A DNA stretch of 64,000 nucleotides from Pseudomonas xantholysinigenes (GTDB lineage: Bacteria; Pseudomonadota; Gammaproteobacteria; Pseudomonadales; Pseudomonadaceae): positions 3,689,001 through 3,753,000 of the forward strand of contig NZ_CP077095.1 of NCBI RefSeq assembly GCF_014268885.2. The letters are read 5' to 3'. Below the pieces are notes generated by a model that did no database searches, was not told the DNA's origin, and saw only the letters and a list, made by a program, of their open reading frames with translations. Shown piece after piece: positions 3,295-5,623 of the stretch. Both the position numbers and the translations under genes were made by a program. Numbering within the stretch: the first letter of the stretch is position 1; every line of letters begins with the position of its first letter.

Positions 3295-3360
3295 ACCGTA
3301 ACAGTTGCAAAGTGTACTGGGACAGATCGCAGGATAGTCAACATTACAGTTGCGTAACAG
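3295..3360. promoter_or_regulatory. Candidate MocR operator: repeated ACAGTTGC motifs
   Basis: ACAGTTGC occurs at 3301-3308 and 3346-3353, each next to a GTAAC (GTAACAGTTGC at 3298-3308, ACAGTTGCGTAAC at 3346-3358), with TGTACTGGGACAG at 3313-3325 between them. MocR proteins typically bind such paired repeats near their own promoter. The assignment rests on position and repetition only. Confidence 0.4.
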
Positions 3361-3445
3361 AGGAAATCTGCCCAGTAGCGATCCCGTGCCGTTGCCGTTG
3401 CCGATCAAGAGGCTATCGCCAAACCCAACGCGCGACAGCTGCGCC

Positions 3446-3683
3446 AGCCCAGGCGCCGCCCGTACCTTCGCGACTTCAGGAGGCCGAACGCAGGCCTTGC
3501 GGAGGGAGGTGACGGGCATGGATGCCCGTCAAGCGCTGCGCCCCAGGATGGGGCGTTCAGCGCGGTCCTCCCGGGAGCAAGGCCGGAGTGAGGGGACCCG
3601 GAGCGAAGCGGAGGGCCGGATGAATGGAGCGCAGCGTTTTTTGGTTACTTTTTGTCGCGTTTGACAAAAAGTGACTCGCCGTA
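3446..3683 (+). repeat. Structured dispersed repeat, copy A, left part
   Basis: This is the left 238 bp of a roughly 280-bp repeat whose inverted partner is 5293-5567; the rest of copy A lies beyond the IS at 5130-5180. It contains nested palindromes: TGACGGGCA-TGGA-TGCCCGTCA, GCGCCCCA-GGA-TGGGGCG, and ACTTTTTGTC-GCGTTT-GACAAAAAGT (about 3646-3674). The IS has split a further small hairpin, TCGCC-GTAAA-GGCGA. No convincing protein is encoded. It resembles the large hairpin-rich intergenic repeats known from fluorescent pseudomonads. Confidence 0.8.
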
Positions 3684-3733
3684 TGAACTGACCCCCGAAA
3701 GTTGGACGCCTGACCCCAAGCGGAGGGTGTTCC

Positions 3734-4276
3734 ATGACGAAATACGACCTAGCGCTCAAGCAAGCACTCATCGAGGAGTGTCTTTCTGCCCGGAGTGTTC
3801 ATGAGGTGGCACTGAGGCATAGCCTGAGTGCATCGCTGCTGCGCCGTTGGATAAAGGGCTATGAGCAACACGGTGCTGCAGGTCTGGCTACCAAGTACAG
3901 CCACTACGACGCCCAGTTCAAGTTGAAGGTTTTGCAGTGCATCGAGCAAGACGGACTGTCAGCCCAGCAAGCCTGCATACAGTTTGATATTCGTGGCCCG
4001 AGTAGCATCAGGCAATGGAAAAGGTTGTACGATGAAGGCGGACTAGAAGCACTTCACCCGCATCGTGCCCGAGAATCCAGTATGCCCCGCAAAGCATCAG
4101 AACAACCCAACGTAAGCCCTGCTAAGCCTGCAGATGCTGAGTTGACACCTAAGCAAATGCTCGAAGAGCTGGAGTATTTACGTGCGGAGAATGCCTATCT
4201 AAAAAAGCTCGATGCCTTGATCCAAGCGGATCCACGCACTGCGCAACCAAGAAAGCGCAGGCTGTCCAAGGATTGA
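3734..4276 (+). CDS. IS3-family transposase subunit OrfA
   Basis: OrfA has 180 residues with two helix-turn-helix segments (residues about 10-60, VHEVALRHSLSASLLRRWIKGY, and 60-115, SAQQACIQFDIRGPSSIRQW), as in the IS150-type InsJ proteins. A leucine-zipper-like stretch follows (MLEELEYLRAENAYLKKLDAL). It binds the IS ends. The A-AAA-AAG heptamer at 4201-4207, within the codons for LKK, can shift ribosomes into the -1 frame to make the OrfAB fusion. The stop overlaps the first codon of the orfB reading. Confidence 0.93.
   Translation: MTKYDLALKQALIEECLSARSVHEVALRHSLSASLLRRWIKGYEQHGAAGLATKYSHYDAQFKLKVLQCIEQDGLSAQQACIQFDIRGPSSIRQWKRLYDEGGLEALHPHRARESSMPRKASEQPNVSPAKPADAELTPKQMLEELEYLRAENAYLKKLDALIQADPRTAQPRKRRLSKD
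4201..4207 (+). promoter_or_regulatory. -1 ribosomal frameshift site (A6G)
   Basis: A-AAA-AAG is the classical slippery heptamer of IS3 elements. OrfA is read in frame 2 and orfB in frame 1, so a -1 slip joins them. I read the -1 frame from 4201 to the orfB start and found no stop, so the fusion transposase can be made. Downstream stimulatory structure was not assessed. Confidence 0.8.
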
Positions 4277-5097
4277 GGCATGAACATCGACTGGCTCTGC
4301 TGTTACGTGCTGCAGGGCTGGCACGCAGTACCTTCTATTACCAAAGCAAAGCCTTGGTGGCCGACAAGCATGCGGCCCTCAAAGAACGCATCAAGAGTGT
4401 CTATCACAGGCATAAGGGGCGGTACGGCTATCGCCGCATCACCGCCGTGCTTGGGTGCCATGGCGAGGTGATCAATCACAAGAAGGTGCAGCGGTTGATG
4501 CAGTTAATGGATCTGAAATCGCTGGTAAAAGTGAAGAAATATCGCTCCTACCGAGGTTCCGAAGGGCTTGTTGCATCTGATCTGCTCAAGCGTGAGTTCA
4601 AGGCGGAAGCCCCTAATCAGAAATGGGTAACCGATGTGACAGAGTTCAAGGTGAAAGGGCAGAAGCTGTTTCTTTCGCCTGTGATGGACCTGTACAACGG
4701 CGAAATTCTTGCCTATCAGATCAATCCGCGCCCTGAGTTCAAGATGGTGTCGGCGATGTTGGAGCAAGCTTTCGAGCGGCTGAACCCAGATGACAAACCG
4801 ATATTGCACTCCGATCAGGGCTGGCAATACCGACAGCCCGCTTATCGACATATGCTGGGCAGAAAGAAAATACAACAGAGTATGTCGCGTAAGGGTAACT
4901 GCCTGGACAATGCCGCGATGGAAAGCTTCTTTGGCACACTCAAGAGCGAGTTTTTCTATTTGCAATCGTTTGAGAGTGTTGAACAACTGGCGTCAGGCCT
5001 TGAGGACTACATCGCCTACTACAACCAAGAGCGTATAAGTCTAAGACTGAATGGCTTGAGTCCGGTACAATTTCGGACCCAAGCGCTGAACCCATAG
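4273..5097 (+). CDS. IS3-family transposase catalytic subunit OrfB
   Basis: This is the DDE integrase-like domain (274 residues counted from TTG 4273). The catalytic triad is readable: D in WVTDVTEFKV, D in HSDQGWQY, and E in MESFFGTLKSEFF. An HTH_21-type segment (HRHKGRYGYRRITAVL) precedes it. The frame is open upstream to the slippery site at 4201-4207, so it is probably expressed mainly as an OrfAB fusion rather than from TTG. The stop lies 7 bp before the right inverted repeat. No disruption is visible. Confidence 0.93.
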   Translation: MRHEHRLALLLRAAGLARSTFYYQSKALVADKHAALKERIKSVYHRHKGRYGYRRITAVLGCHGEVINHKKVQRLMQLMDLKSLVKVKKYRSYRGSEGLVASDLLKREFKAEAPNQKWVTDVTEFKVKGQKLFLSPVMDLYNGEILAYQINPRPEFKMVSAMLEQAFERLNPDDKPILHSDQGWQYRQPAYRHMLGRKKIQQSMSRKGNCLDNAAMESFFGTLKSEFFYLQSFESVEQLASGLEDYIAYYNQERISLRLNGLSPVQFRTQALNP

Positions 5098-5129
5098 CGT
5101 ACCCCGTCCAACTTTCGGGGGTCAGTTCA

Positions 5130-5180
5130 CGTAAAGGCGAAAAGGTGATTATGCGTCGATATAGCAAATGAATGCGCTTA
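5130..5180 (+). repeat. Structured dispersed repeat, copy A, right part
   Basis: This is the remainder of copy A after the IS. It lines up with the reverse complement of 5293-5340: both carry AAGGCGAAAAGGTG or AAGGCGGAAAGGTG, then TATGCGTCGA and AAATGAATG. It begins with the duplicated CGTA. Confidence 0.75.
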
Positions 5181-5204
5181 CATCTGTAGAAACCCACGCC
5201 GACC

Positions 5205-5269
5205 GACTTTGACTTTGACTTTGACTTTGACTTTGACTTTGACTTTGACTTTGACTTTGACTTTGACTT
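5205..5269 (+). repeat. Hexanucleotide microsatellite (GACTTT)n
   Basis: GACTTT repeats perfectly for 65 bp, almost 11 units, in the spacer between the two inverted repeat copies. It is non-coding here. Such arrays are prone to length change by slippage. Confidence 0.97.
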
Positions 5270-5292
5270 GCAAAGTGTGGGCCTTGAAAGTT

Positions 5293-5567
5293 ATATGCTC
5301 ATTCATTTTCCATGTCGACGCATAGGCACCTTTCCGCCTTTACGGCGGCCTACTTTTCTCTTGGGAAAAGTAGGCAAAACCGTTCCGCTCCATTCATCCG
5401 GCCCCTACGCTTCGCTCCGGGGTCCCCTCGCTCCGTTCTTGCTCCCGGGAGGACCGCGCTGAACGCCCCATCCTGGGGCGCAGCGCTTGACGGGCATCCA
5501 TGCCCGTCACCTCCCTCCGCAAGAACTCCGCTCGGCCTCCTGAAGTCGCAATTGGCGGCGCCTGGAC
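5293..5567 (-). repeat. Structured dispersed repeat, copy B (inverted, uninterrupted)
   Basis: This is the inverted, intact partner of copy A. Read on the minus strand it keeps the TGACGGGCA and GCGCCCCA hairpins. Where copy A has ACTTTTTGTC/GACAAAAAGT arms, it has CTACTTTTC/GAAAAGTAG arms, and CCGCC-GTAAA-GGCGG where A has TCGCC-GTAAA-GGCGA. Both stems differ by paired changes, so the structure is kept while the sequence drifts. Confidence 0.8.
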
Positions 5568-5595
5568 TATCGCGTACTTAAAAGCAAGAGCAAGA

Positions 5596-5623
5596 ACGAG
5601 AAACGAGAAACGAGAAACGAGAC
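5596..5623 (+). repeat. Heptanucleotide tandem repeat (AACGAGA)4
   Basis: Four perfect 7-bp units lie just outside copy B. The remaining sequence to 5744 shows no gene or recognisable site apart from a weak REP-like GGAGCG stretch. Confidence 0.9.

Follow-up and report, generated by a model that had tools for sequence, protein, structure and literature searches.

The DNA stretch analysed here (the window; 64,000 nucleotides) covers G000:C1:3689001-3753000, where G000 is the 5.6 Mb single-contig chromosome of Pseudomonas xantholysinigenes (NZ_CP077095.1) with dnaA at the contig start. It carries a composite element, in which two structured arms (A and B) face each other across a short tandem array. 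We found that the folding of these arms is under selection, that the folded molecule is probably RNA and that the copies of the element share one orientation relative to the replication fork. This polarity is strongly supported in five genomes and absent from a sixth. The reading that we consider best, with a probability of roughly 55%, is that the elements are paired Rsm-binding RNA repeats, which became oriented through replication-coupled dispersal or through selection.

In a preliminary description of the region, the two facing copies A and B had already been reported with their coordinates, and both were borne out by sequence comparison and by the own-genome copies. They are the two arms of one composite element. 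The two-part layout given there for copy A was correct, but the insertion sequence (IS) that fills the gap at 3684-5129 had gone unrecognised. When we searched the own genome with A and with B, at least 27 composite elements with one A arm and one B arm each were found; 40 of 77 candidates were scored in the search with A and 40 of 65 in that with B, and the remainder may hold more elements. Seventeen of the 27 elements (type I) have the order A-(GACTTT)n-B with the GGCGCC ends outside, and ten (type II) have the order B-spacer-A with the GGCGCC ends inside.

Covariation in the arms

For the structural analysis, 36 arms from six genomes were chosen from a collection of 238 arms so that they span its groups (alignment A1), and all of them were read from the GGCGCC end towards the hairpins H1 and H2, in which sense they gave a clean alignment. 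RNAalifold proposed 34 pairs for these arms, 18 of them with at least one double change. The statistics were calculated on a hand-drawn structure of 31 pairs, which excludes the inner stem P2b, where the register shifts. Relatedness among the arms was kept in the shuffled alignments and was controlled for by sliding the structure. Here, we found that 98.1% of the 1100 cells pair, compared with 84.9 ± 0.7% in 500 shuffles and 35-47% when the partners were slid by 1-3 columns. Double changes were present in 16 of the 31 pairs (11.6 ± 1.5 after shuffling, with 1 of 500 shuffles as high), and the covariation score was 0.382, as compared with 0.146 ± 0.010 for shuffled and at most 0.079 for slid structures. 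Similar data were obtained for a model-realigned set (141 matches from 72 loci, 93 of them distinct), the alignment of which leans to the structure: 96.5% of the cells were paired, 19 of 37 pairs showed double changes and the score was 0.358 (0.129 shuffled, at most 0.088 slid). The number of further pair types was not above that of the shuffles, neither for the 36 arms (28 vs. 27.6) nor for the 93 distinct arms (37 vs. 39.0).

In the 206 arms parsed by pattern, the third pair of P2b is C-G in 135 and G-C in 70 arms and the fourth pair G-C in 106 and C-G in 99 arms, with one deviating cell for each. The outer stem of hairpin H1 occurs as 16 distinct strings in the 217 of 238 arms that could be parsed. 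Matched changes on both sides of two hairpin stems, by which A differs from B, had been described before and are present in the sequence. It had been proposed from them that the folded form is under selection, a claim to be given up if an alignment of many copies held no excess of compensatory changes. This comparison was run on 36 and on 93 arms, the excess is clear in most measures and the claim stands.

Folding strand

On the strand on which the arms fold, G-U cells outnumbered A-C cells by 22 to 3 in the 36 arms and by 56 to 16 in the core of the 93 distinct arms, where 11 of the 16 A-C cells fall in the register-shifting P2b; these cells come from related sequences and are not independent events. 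Parsing of H1 by anchors, without a folding program, gave 113 G-U and 6 A-C cells, or 7 and 2 when each distinct stem string was counted. Since the opposite excess is expected if the other strand folds, the folded molecule is probably RNA of the folding strand. Replicative mutation bias is a poor explanation for the wobble excess because A and B arms occupy opposite strands relative to replication.

Orientation of the elements relative to replication

The terminus was located with a P. aeruginosa dif pattern (up to 3 mismatches), which gave a single match in 11 of 16 genomes and none in the control. dnaA was located in all ten genomes tried. A tree of the 238 arms was built without strand information and was then compared with strand and replichore. 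The clade of an arm matched its polarity in 54/54 arms of G000, 40/40 of G110, 34/34 of G097, 16/16 of G203 and 52/54 of G258. Counted as elements, 27 in G000, 20 in G110, 19 in G097, 10 in G203 and 27 of 28 in G258 are oriented to the fork, which makes 103 of the 104 elements fetched (the count covers loci listed and scored by the searches, 40 of 113 candidates in the case of G258). The single reversed element lies at 3587268/3587715 in G258. Element orientation switches at dif, and this is also the case in G110, where dif was placed at 3.42 Mb and dnaA, unusually, at 0.67 Mb rather than at the contig start.

For seven other genomes a looser rule based on match ends was applied. With this rule 7/7 loci of G193 agreed with dif. 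When the terminus was placed opposite dnaA, all four loci of G167 agreed, and in G384 six of eight loci were clear and agreeing and two ambiguous. G220 carries its elements on a single replichore, and G306, G074 and G319 have too few clear arms. No polarity was seen in the divergent sixth genome (G015), in which B arms had the expected sense at 11 of 20 places, three weaker places being excluded.

In the arm tree the A clade spans four species, though its support is weak at 0.57; the G097 B arms attach next to it, and the arms of G258 form a clade of their own. From this topology it appears likely, but not firm, that the two arm types are older than the species. One base pair goes with the strand. 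In G000, G110, G097 and G258, 81 of 88 A arms have A16-T120 and none has G16-C120, while 80 of 94 B arms have G16-C120 and none has A16-T120, the rest being mixed or unread by the pattern. The nine B arms of G203 are mixed at this position (4 A-T, 4 A-C, 1 G-C).

Since every element combines arms of both senses, we rejected the view that the polarity comes from a strongly expressed RNA gene being kept co-oriented. We also rejected a simple ordered signal, since type I and type II elements are opposite in order but have the same strand sense. Tus-Ter sites and the FtsK-orienting polar sequences (KOPS) are fork-polar sequences, and the orientation of our elements likewise reverses at the terminus; unlike these sites, the elements are hundreds of bases long, structured and without a known protein reader. 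To our knowledge, no RNA gene pair behaves in this way, and none of the titles and abstract openings of the open-licence PMC papers listed in our searches concerns such a polarity.

Relationship to TwoAYGGAY RNA

Rfam gave no match in the window at the gathering threshold, and at a relaxed threshold both arms matched TwoAYGGAY (RF01731, clan CL00106) on the folding strand. Homologous arms in other genomes passed the gathering score (L115 with 48.6 and 47.4, L167 with 45.4, L048 with 43.6), and for this reason we file the window copies as divergent relatives of this family rather than as members. Like TwoAYGGAY RNA, the arms have two adjacent GGA-loop hairpins within an enclosing stem, on the same strand and in gammaproteobacteria. 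The loop of P3 reads CATGGATG in 231 of 238 arms and the second hairpin has a GGA loop in 226. The arms differ from the family in that their second loop is mostly AGGAY or AGGGAY, that outer helices and the hairpins H1 and H2 are added, and that they occur as polar inverted pairs with tandem arrays. The earlier suggestion of an unnamed structured RNA is superseded, since the arm core is a relative of a named Rfam family. TwoAYGGAY is listed as a probable RNA that is probably not cis-regulatory (PMC2864571) and CsrA binding has been predicted for it (PMC4333381); its function is given as unknown in the excerpts of both sources.

Features of the locus

The features of the window element are listed in Table 1. 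The IS in the A arm is 1446 bp long, has 25-bp terminal inverted repeats and is bordered by CGTA on both sides. Its orfA encodes a helix-turn-helix protein and its orfB an rve domain, it has a duplication in the range of 3-4 bp and its relatives are named IS3 family transposase, all of which places it in the IS3 family.

Table 1. Coordinates (window positions) of the composite element and its parts
Feature	Position	Strand	Basis
Outer tandem array, A side, GCCGTT x 2.5	3388..3402	+	sequence reading
A arm, part one	3440..3683	+ (folding strand)	own-genome copy searches
P1-P2-P3 structured domain of A arm (model R1 region)	3473..3597	+	sequence vs. 36-arm alignment A1; covariation
TwoAYGGAY (RF01731) match, A arm	3508..3567	+	40.6 bits, E 2.3e-4, gathering score 43
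Hairpin H1 of A arm, GTTACTTTTTGTC / GACAAAAAGTGAC, one T-G wobble on +	3644..3675	+	sequence reading, anchor parse
5' half of hairpin H2 of A arm (TCGCC + loop), split by IS; 3' half at 5136-5140	3676..3683	+	
IS3-family insertion sequence inside H2 loop; CGTA duplication at 3680-3683 and 5130-5133	3684..5129	+	
IS orfA (helix-turn-helix)	3734..4276	+	
IS orfB (rve integrase core)	4273..5097	+	
A arm, part two	5130..5200	+	
Central hexamer array between arms, (GACTTT)10.8	5205..5269	+	
B arm, facing A	5270..5575	- (folding strand)	own-genome copy searches
Hairpin H2 of B arm, CCGCC / GGCGG (+ reading)	5334..5348	-	sequence reading
Hairpin H1 of B arm, GCCTACTTTTC / GAAAAGTAGGC (+ reading)	5348..5375	-	sequence reading, anchor parse
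P1-P2-P3 structured domain of B arm	5422..5546	-	sequence reading; covariation
TwoAYGGAY (RF01731) match, B arm	5452..5511	-	40.6 bits, E 2.3e-4, gathering score 43
Outer tandem array, B side, (AACGAGA)4	5595..5622	+	tandem-repeat reading

Copies and distribution

Exact (GACTTT)3 words occur 62 times in G000 (control 0), in every case within a type I element (15 of the 17 have them) and with one replichore sense throughout. The type II spacers that were read contain what we take to be a REP-like doublet (REP, repetitive extragenic palindromic sequence). On their outer sides the 17 type I elements are bordered by short-unit tandem arrays, the unit of which varies by locus; most of those next to A are T-rich and most of those next to B are A-rich. 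The GCCGTT unit (up to about 10 copies) also borders A arms of other type I elements, and the B side of other elements carries units other than AACGAGA.

A genus search gave matches at E 1e-50 or better in 42 of 398 genomes. When named genomes were searched with a 34-base arm motif, the matches listed were mainly from species of the Pseudomonas putida group, among them P. peradeniyensis, P. mosselii, P. soli and P. taiwanensis. When 321 genomes of the class were searched with model R1 under strict filters, eight had matches, including the own genome. One of these matches, locus L170 of the distant genome G571, holds a whole inverted composite with H1-like hairpins and GACTTT-type arrays; similar repeats are known from Xanthomonadaceae. 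In G015 the divergent copies (L048-L067) are arranged as B-A or B-A-B, and two junction types alternate in these arrays.

Some copies in G000 are defective. The sides of H1 do not fully match in B arms at 2.71 and 0.58 Mb, and part of the core is missing from the B arm at 1.716 Mb. In the B arm of L027 (near 2712770) H1 is chimaeric, with unpaired sides from different variants, and looks like a snapshot of exchange between arms.

Site sharing and insertion sequences

For 13 of the 27 elements of G000, both flanks are common to an element of G110. Between G000 and G097, both of which are fully polar, only 3 locus pairs showed any flank match (27 and 19 loci). G108 has the window element, G203 lacks it, and in G110 its two flanks are widely separated. 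At the orthologous sites of L042 (in G110 and G203) and of L026 and L043 (in G110), arm ends alone remain, as read by eye. In G203 the unoccupied window site reads TTTGCCGTTGCC, either a scar or the target; we rejected a clean insertion footprint since this sequence leaves the target duplication undefined. Orthologous arms were 93.2% (A) and 90.0% (B) identical, paralogous arms within G000 91.6% and 88.3% (13 pairs each). Since orthologous arms are barely closer than paralogous ones, the copies evolve partly in concert. Three elements of G110 (L076, L078, L081) lie at rearrangement junctions relative to G000, and at L076 the left flank of L027 meets that of L025. The repeat may be a non-autonomous mobile element, as had been proposed: it is dispersed and differs between species, but 13 sites are shared, and the vacant sites that were read show decay or an undefined footprint in place of a clean insertion. 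The B arm had no match in 72,556 plasmid and 50,697 phage records, from which records near the window genome were perhaps excluded, and we rejected a plasmid or phage origin on this absence.

G000 contains 24 ends of the window IS (up to 2 mismatches), which correspond to 12 copies, one of them itself interrupted; copies were counted by their ends, and fragments without ends were not sought. All 12 copies are located in H2 loops of elements. The target duplication is 3 bp in ten copies and 4 bp in the window copy, and L033 was left unscored because of a mismatched end. Other insertion sequences, with frames that are rve transposase-like by eye, lie in H1 loops of L128, L129 and L134 (G203) and of L089 (G097), the stems of which differ.

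Bacterial interspersed mosaic elements (BIME) and REP doublets forming hairpins (REPIN) resemble our elements in having arms of alternating orientation, two kinds of spacer and a repeat targeted by IS elements. The arms differ from them in their length of about 280 nucleotides (20-40 nucleotides for REP), their RNA-type covariation and their strict fork polarity. We rejected a REP/BIME identity on arm length and RNA-like covariation, despite the similar architecture. REP sequences are targeted by IS1397, ISPsy8, ISPpu9 and ISPpu10 (PMC1525189).

A possible Rsm partner and transcription

The arms contain a feature of CsrA/RsmA-type targets, namely several GGA motifs, some of them in hairpin loops. 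Averaged by genome and arm type, the folding strand carries 8.2-13.0 GGA per arm, compared with 0.5-2.6 on the other strand and 5.4-7.9 in dinucleotide shuffles. Judged from the sequence, the two near-invariant GGA hairpins are likely docking sites for a homodimer of the CsrA/RsmA family. The arms resemble the CsrA/RsmA-titrating RNAs CsrB, RsmY and RsmZ in having repeated GGA in hairpin loops and linkers; unlike these RNAs, they occur in many dispersed chromosomal copies, and no sigma-70-like promoter was found in the window element.

According to the excerpt of PMC7937890, among the in vivo RNA targets of RsmA, RsmE and RsmI in P. putida KT2440 are three entries named "ISPpu8 + intergenic region" and one named "long palindromic region downstream PP_3547". 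The latter is called there a putative ISPpu8 insertion site and is handled by the authors as an IS question. By analogy, these palindromes may be composite elements of the kind described here. ISPpu8 belongs to the IS4 family, is 1419 bp long and makes 11-bp duplications (PMC3056050). As an IS4-family element it was rejected as a candidate for the window IS, which is of the IS3 family. In six arms (L022, L025, L027, L040, L042, L045) a small element of 181-219 bp with the ends CAGCCCTTTCAAGGT duplicates exactly the 11-bp H2 hairpin. It is possibly an IS4-family (ISPpu8-like) miniature inverted-repeat transposable element, and the coincidence with the 11-bp duplications of ISPpu8 was counted for the KT2440 link. 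In a P. putida strain a 275-kb amplification is framed by ISPpu8 copies (PMC12341930); if the KT2440 copies of ISPpu8 lie inside these repeats, recombination between repeats would be a fitting explanation.

Between window positions 3345 and 5700 no sigma-70-like promoter sites were found (1.3 expected by chance), GacA boxes not being searched, and terminator-like sites were not in excess (2 vs. 2.7 expected). Since the search gave no such promoter in the window element, the RNA probably arises by read-through from neighbouring genes.

Discussion

The reading that we favour would work as follows. Each arm would be a structured RNA copy of the TwoAYGGAY type, folding from its GGCGCC end to H1 and H2, and two such copies of diverged type, A and B, would make up the composite as an inverted pair, with short tandem arrays in the middle and on the outer sides. 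The GGA hairpins may dock RsmA, RsmE and RsmI, the CsrA/RsmA-family homodimers of P. putida. RNA made by read-through from neighbouring genes could then offer a binding site at 3' ends or, being encoded in many copies, act as a sponge. Dispersal or survival of the composites would be limited to a single orientation to the fork, so that the A RNA is head-on and the B RNA co-directional. Several insertion sequences land in the hairpin loops. The structure, the strand preference, the copy number, the polarity in five genomes and the IS targeting are established by our data; transcription, RNA function, Rsm binding and the cause of the polarity are inferred, with good grounds in the case of RNA function and Rsm binding.

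Several observations weigh against this reading. The window arms score 40.6 bits, below the TwoAYGGAY gathering score of 43, and the second loop is a strict AYGGAY in only 4 of 238 arms. When the opposite strand was folded, G-T cells outnumbered A-C cells in the reading of that fold (357 vs. 82), a total that we set aside because this fold misaligned P2 and because folding programs favour wobbles on the strand they are given. The tie to the KT2440 pull-downs is an inference. Finally, the polarity is unexplained if the RNA alone is selected because each element has one arm of each sense.

An alternative explanation is that the repeat acts as DNA, as a giant non-autonomous element similar to BIME or REPIN, the single-stranded hairpins of which are exposed at the fork and handled by an enzyme that uses one template strand and thereby makes the polarity. 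Fork orientation of 103 of 104 elements, the inverted pairs, the B-A-B tandems of G015 with their two alternating junction types and the scant flank sharing between the fully polar G000 and G097 speak for such a process. We nevertheless regard it as rather unlikely, since the one-strand excess of G-U over A-C is expected of RNA and no enzyme is linked to the repeat, 13 of 27 sites are inherited with G110, and G015 is not polar though its same-type copies are 95-98% alike (upper quartile of pairs). If instead orientation itself were selected, the elements might be marks of chromosome architecture that are read by direction, such as fork-pausing or segregation elements. The switch at dif even in G110, whose dnaA is displaced from 0 to 0.67 Mb, the lack of B arm matches among the 72,556 plasmid and 50,697 phage records and the polarity kept in G258, where arms are only 74-81% identical to the query, are in line with this idea. 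It is improbable when one considers that A and B, with two junction types, occur in either order with the same sense and thus form no single ordered signal, that IS interrupt 12 of the 27 elements, that elements are lost by deletion and that G015 is not polar.

It is about equally improbable that the elements are selfish debris, in which gene conversion copies hairpin blocks, with paired changes carried along, and the polarity goes back to a single ancestral set, most surviving inversions being symmetric. The same hairpin variants turn up as blocks in both arm types, elements sit at rearrangement junctions, and the identities of orthologous and paralogous arms differ little (A 93.2% vs. 91.6%, B 90.0% vs. 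88.3%), as this explanation would have it. It does not account for paired changes across five helices in six genomes with 98.1% of the cells paired; if blocks were copied without selection, unpaired junctions should outnumber the two that G000 shows, and loci that are not shared are polar too.

A wider form of our preferred reading, paired Rsm-binding RNA repeats, would have their orientation read or set by the fork, the Gac/Rsm network tied to replication and the elements acting as conserved, IS-attracting nodes of rearrangement; this extension is tentative. Through this locus TwoAYGGAY RNA gains a genomic setting, in which a chromosome has dozens of paired arms, together with an extended structure, a folding strand and a testable partner (RsmA/E/I), for which the published pull-downs are suggestive. 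The polarity implies that a replication-coupled route of dispersal or a direction-dependent function should exist.

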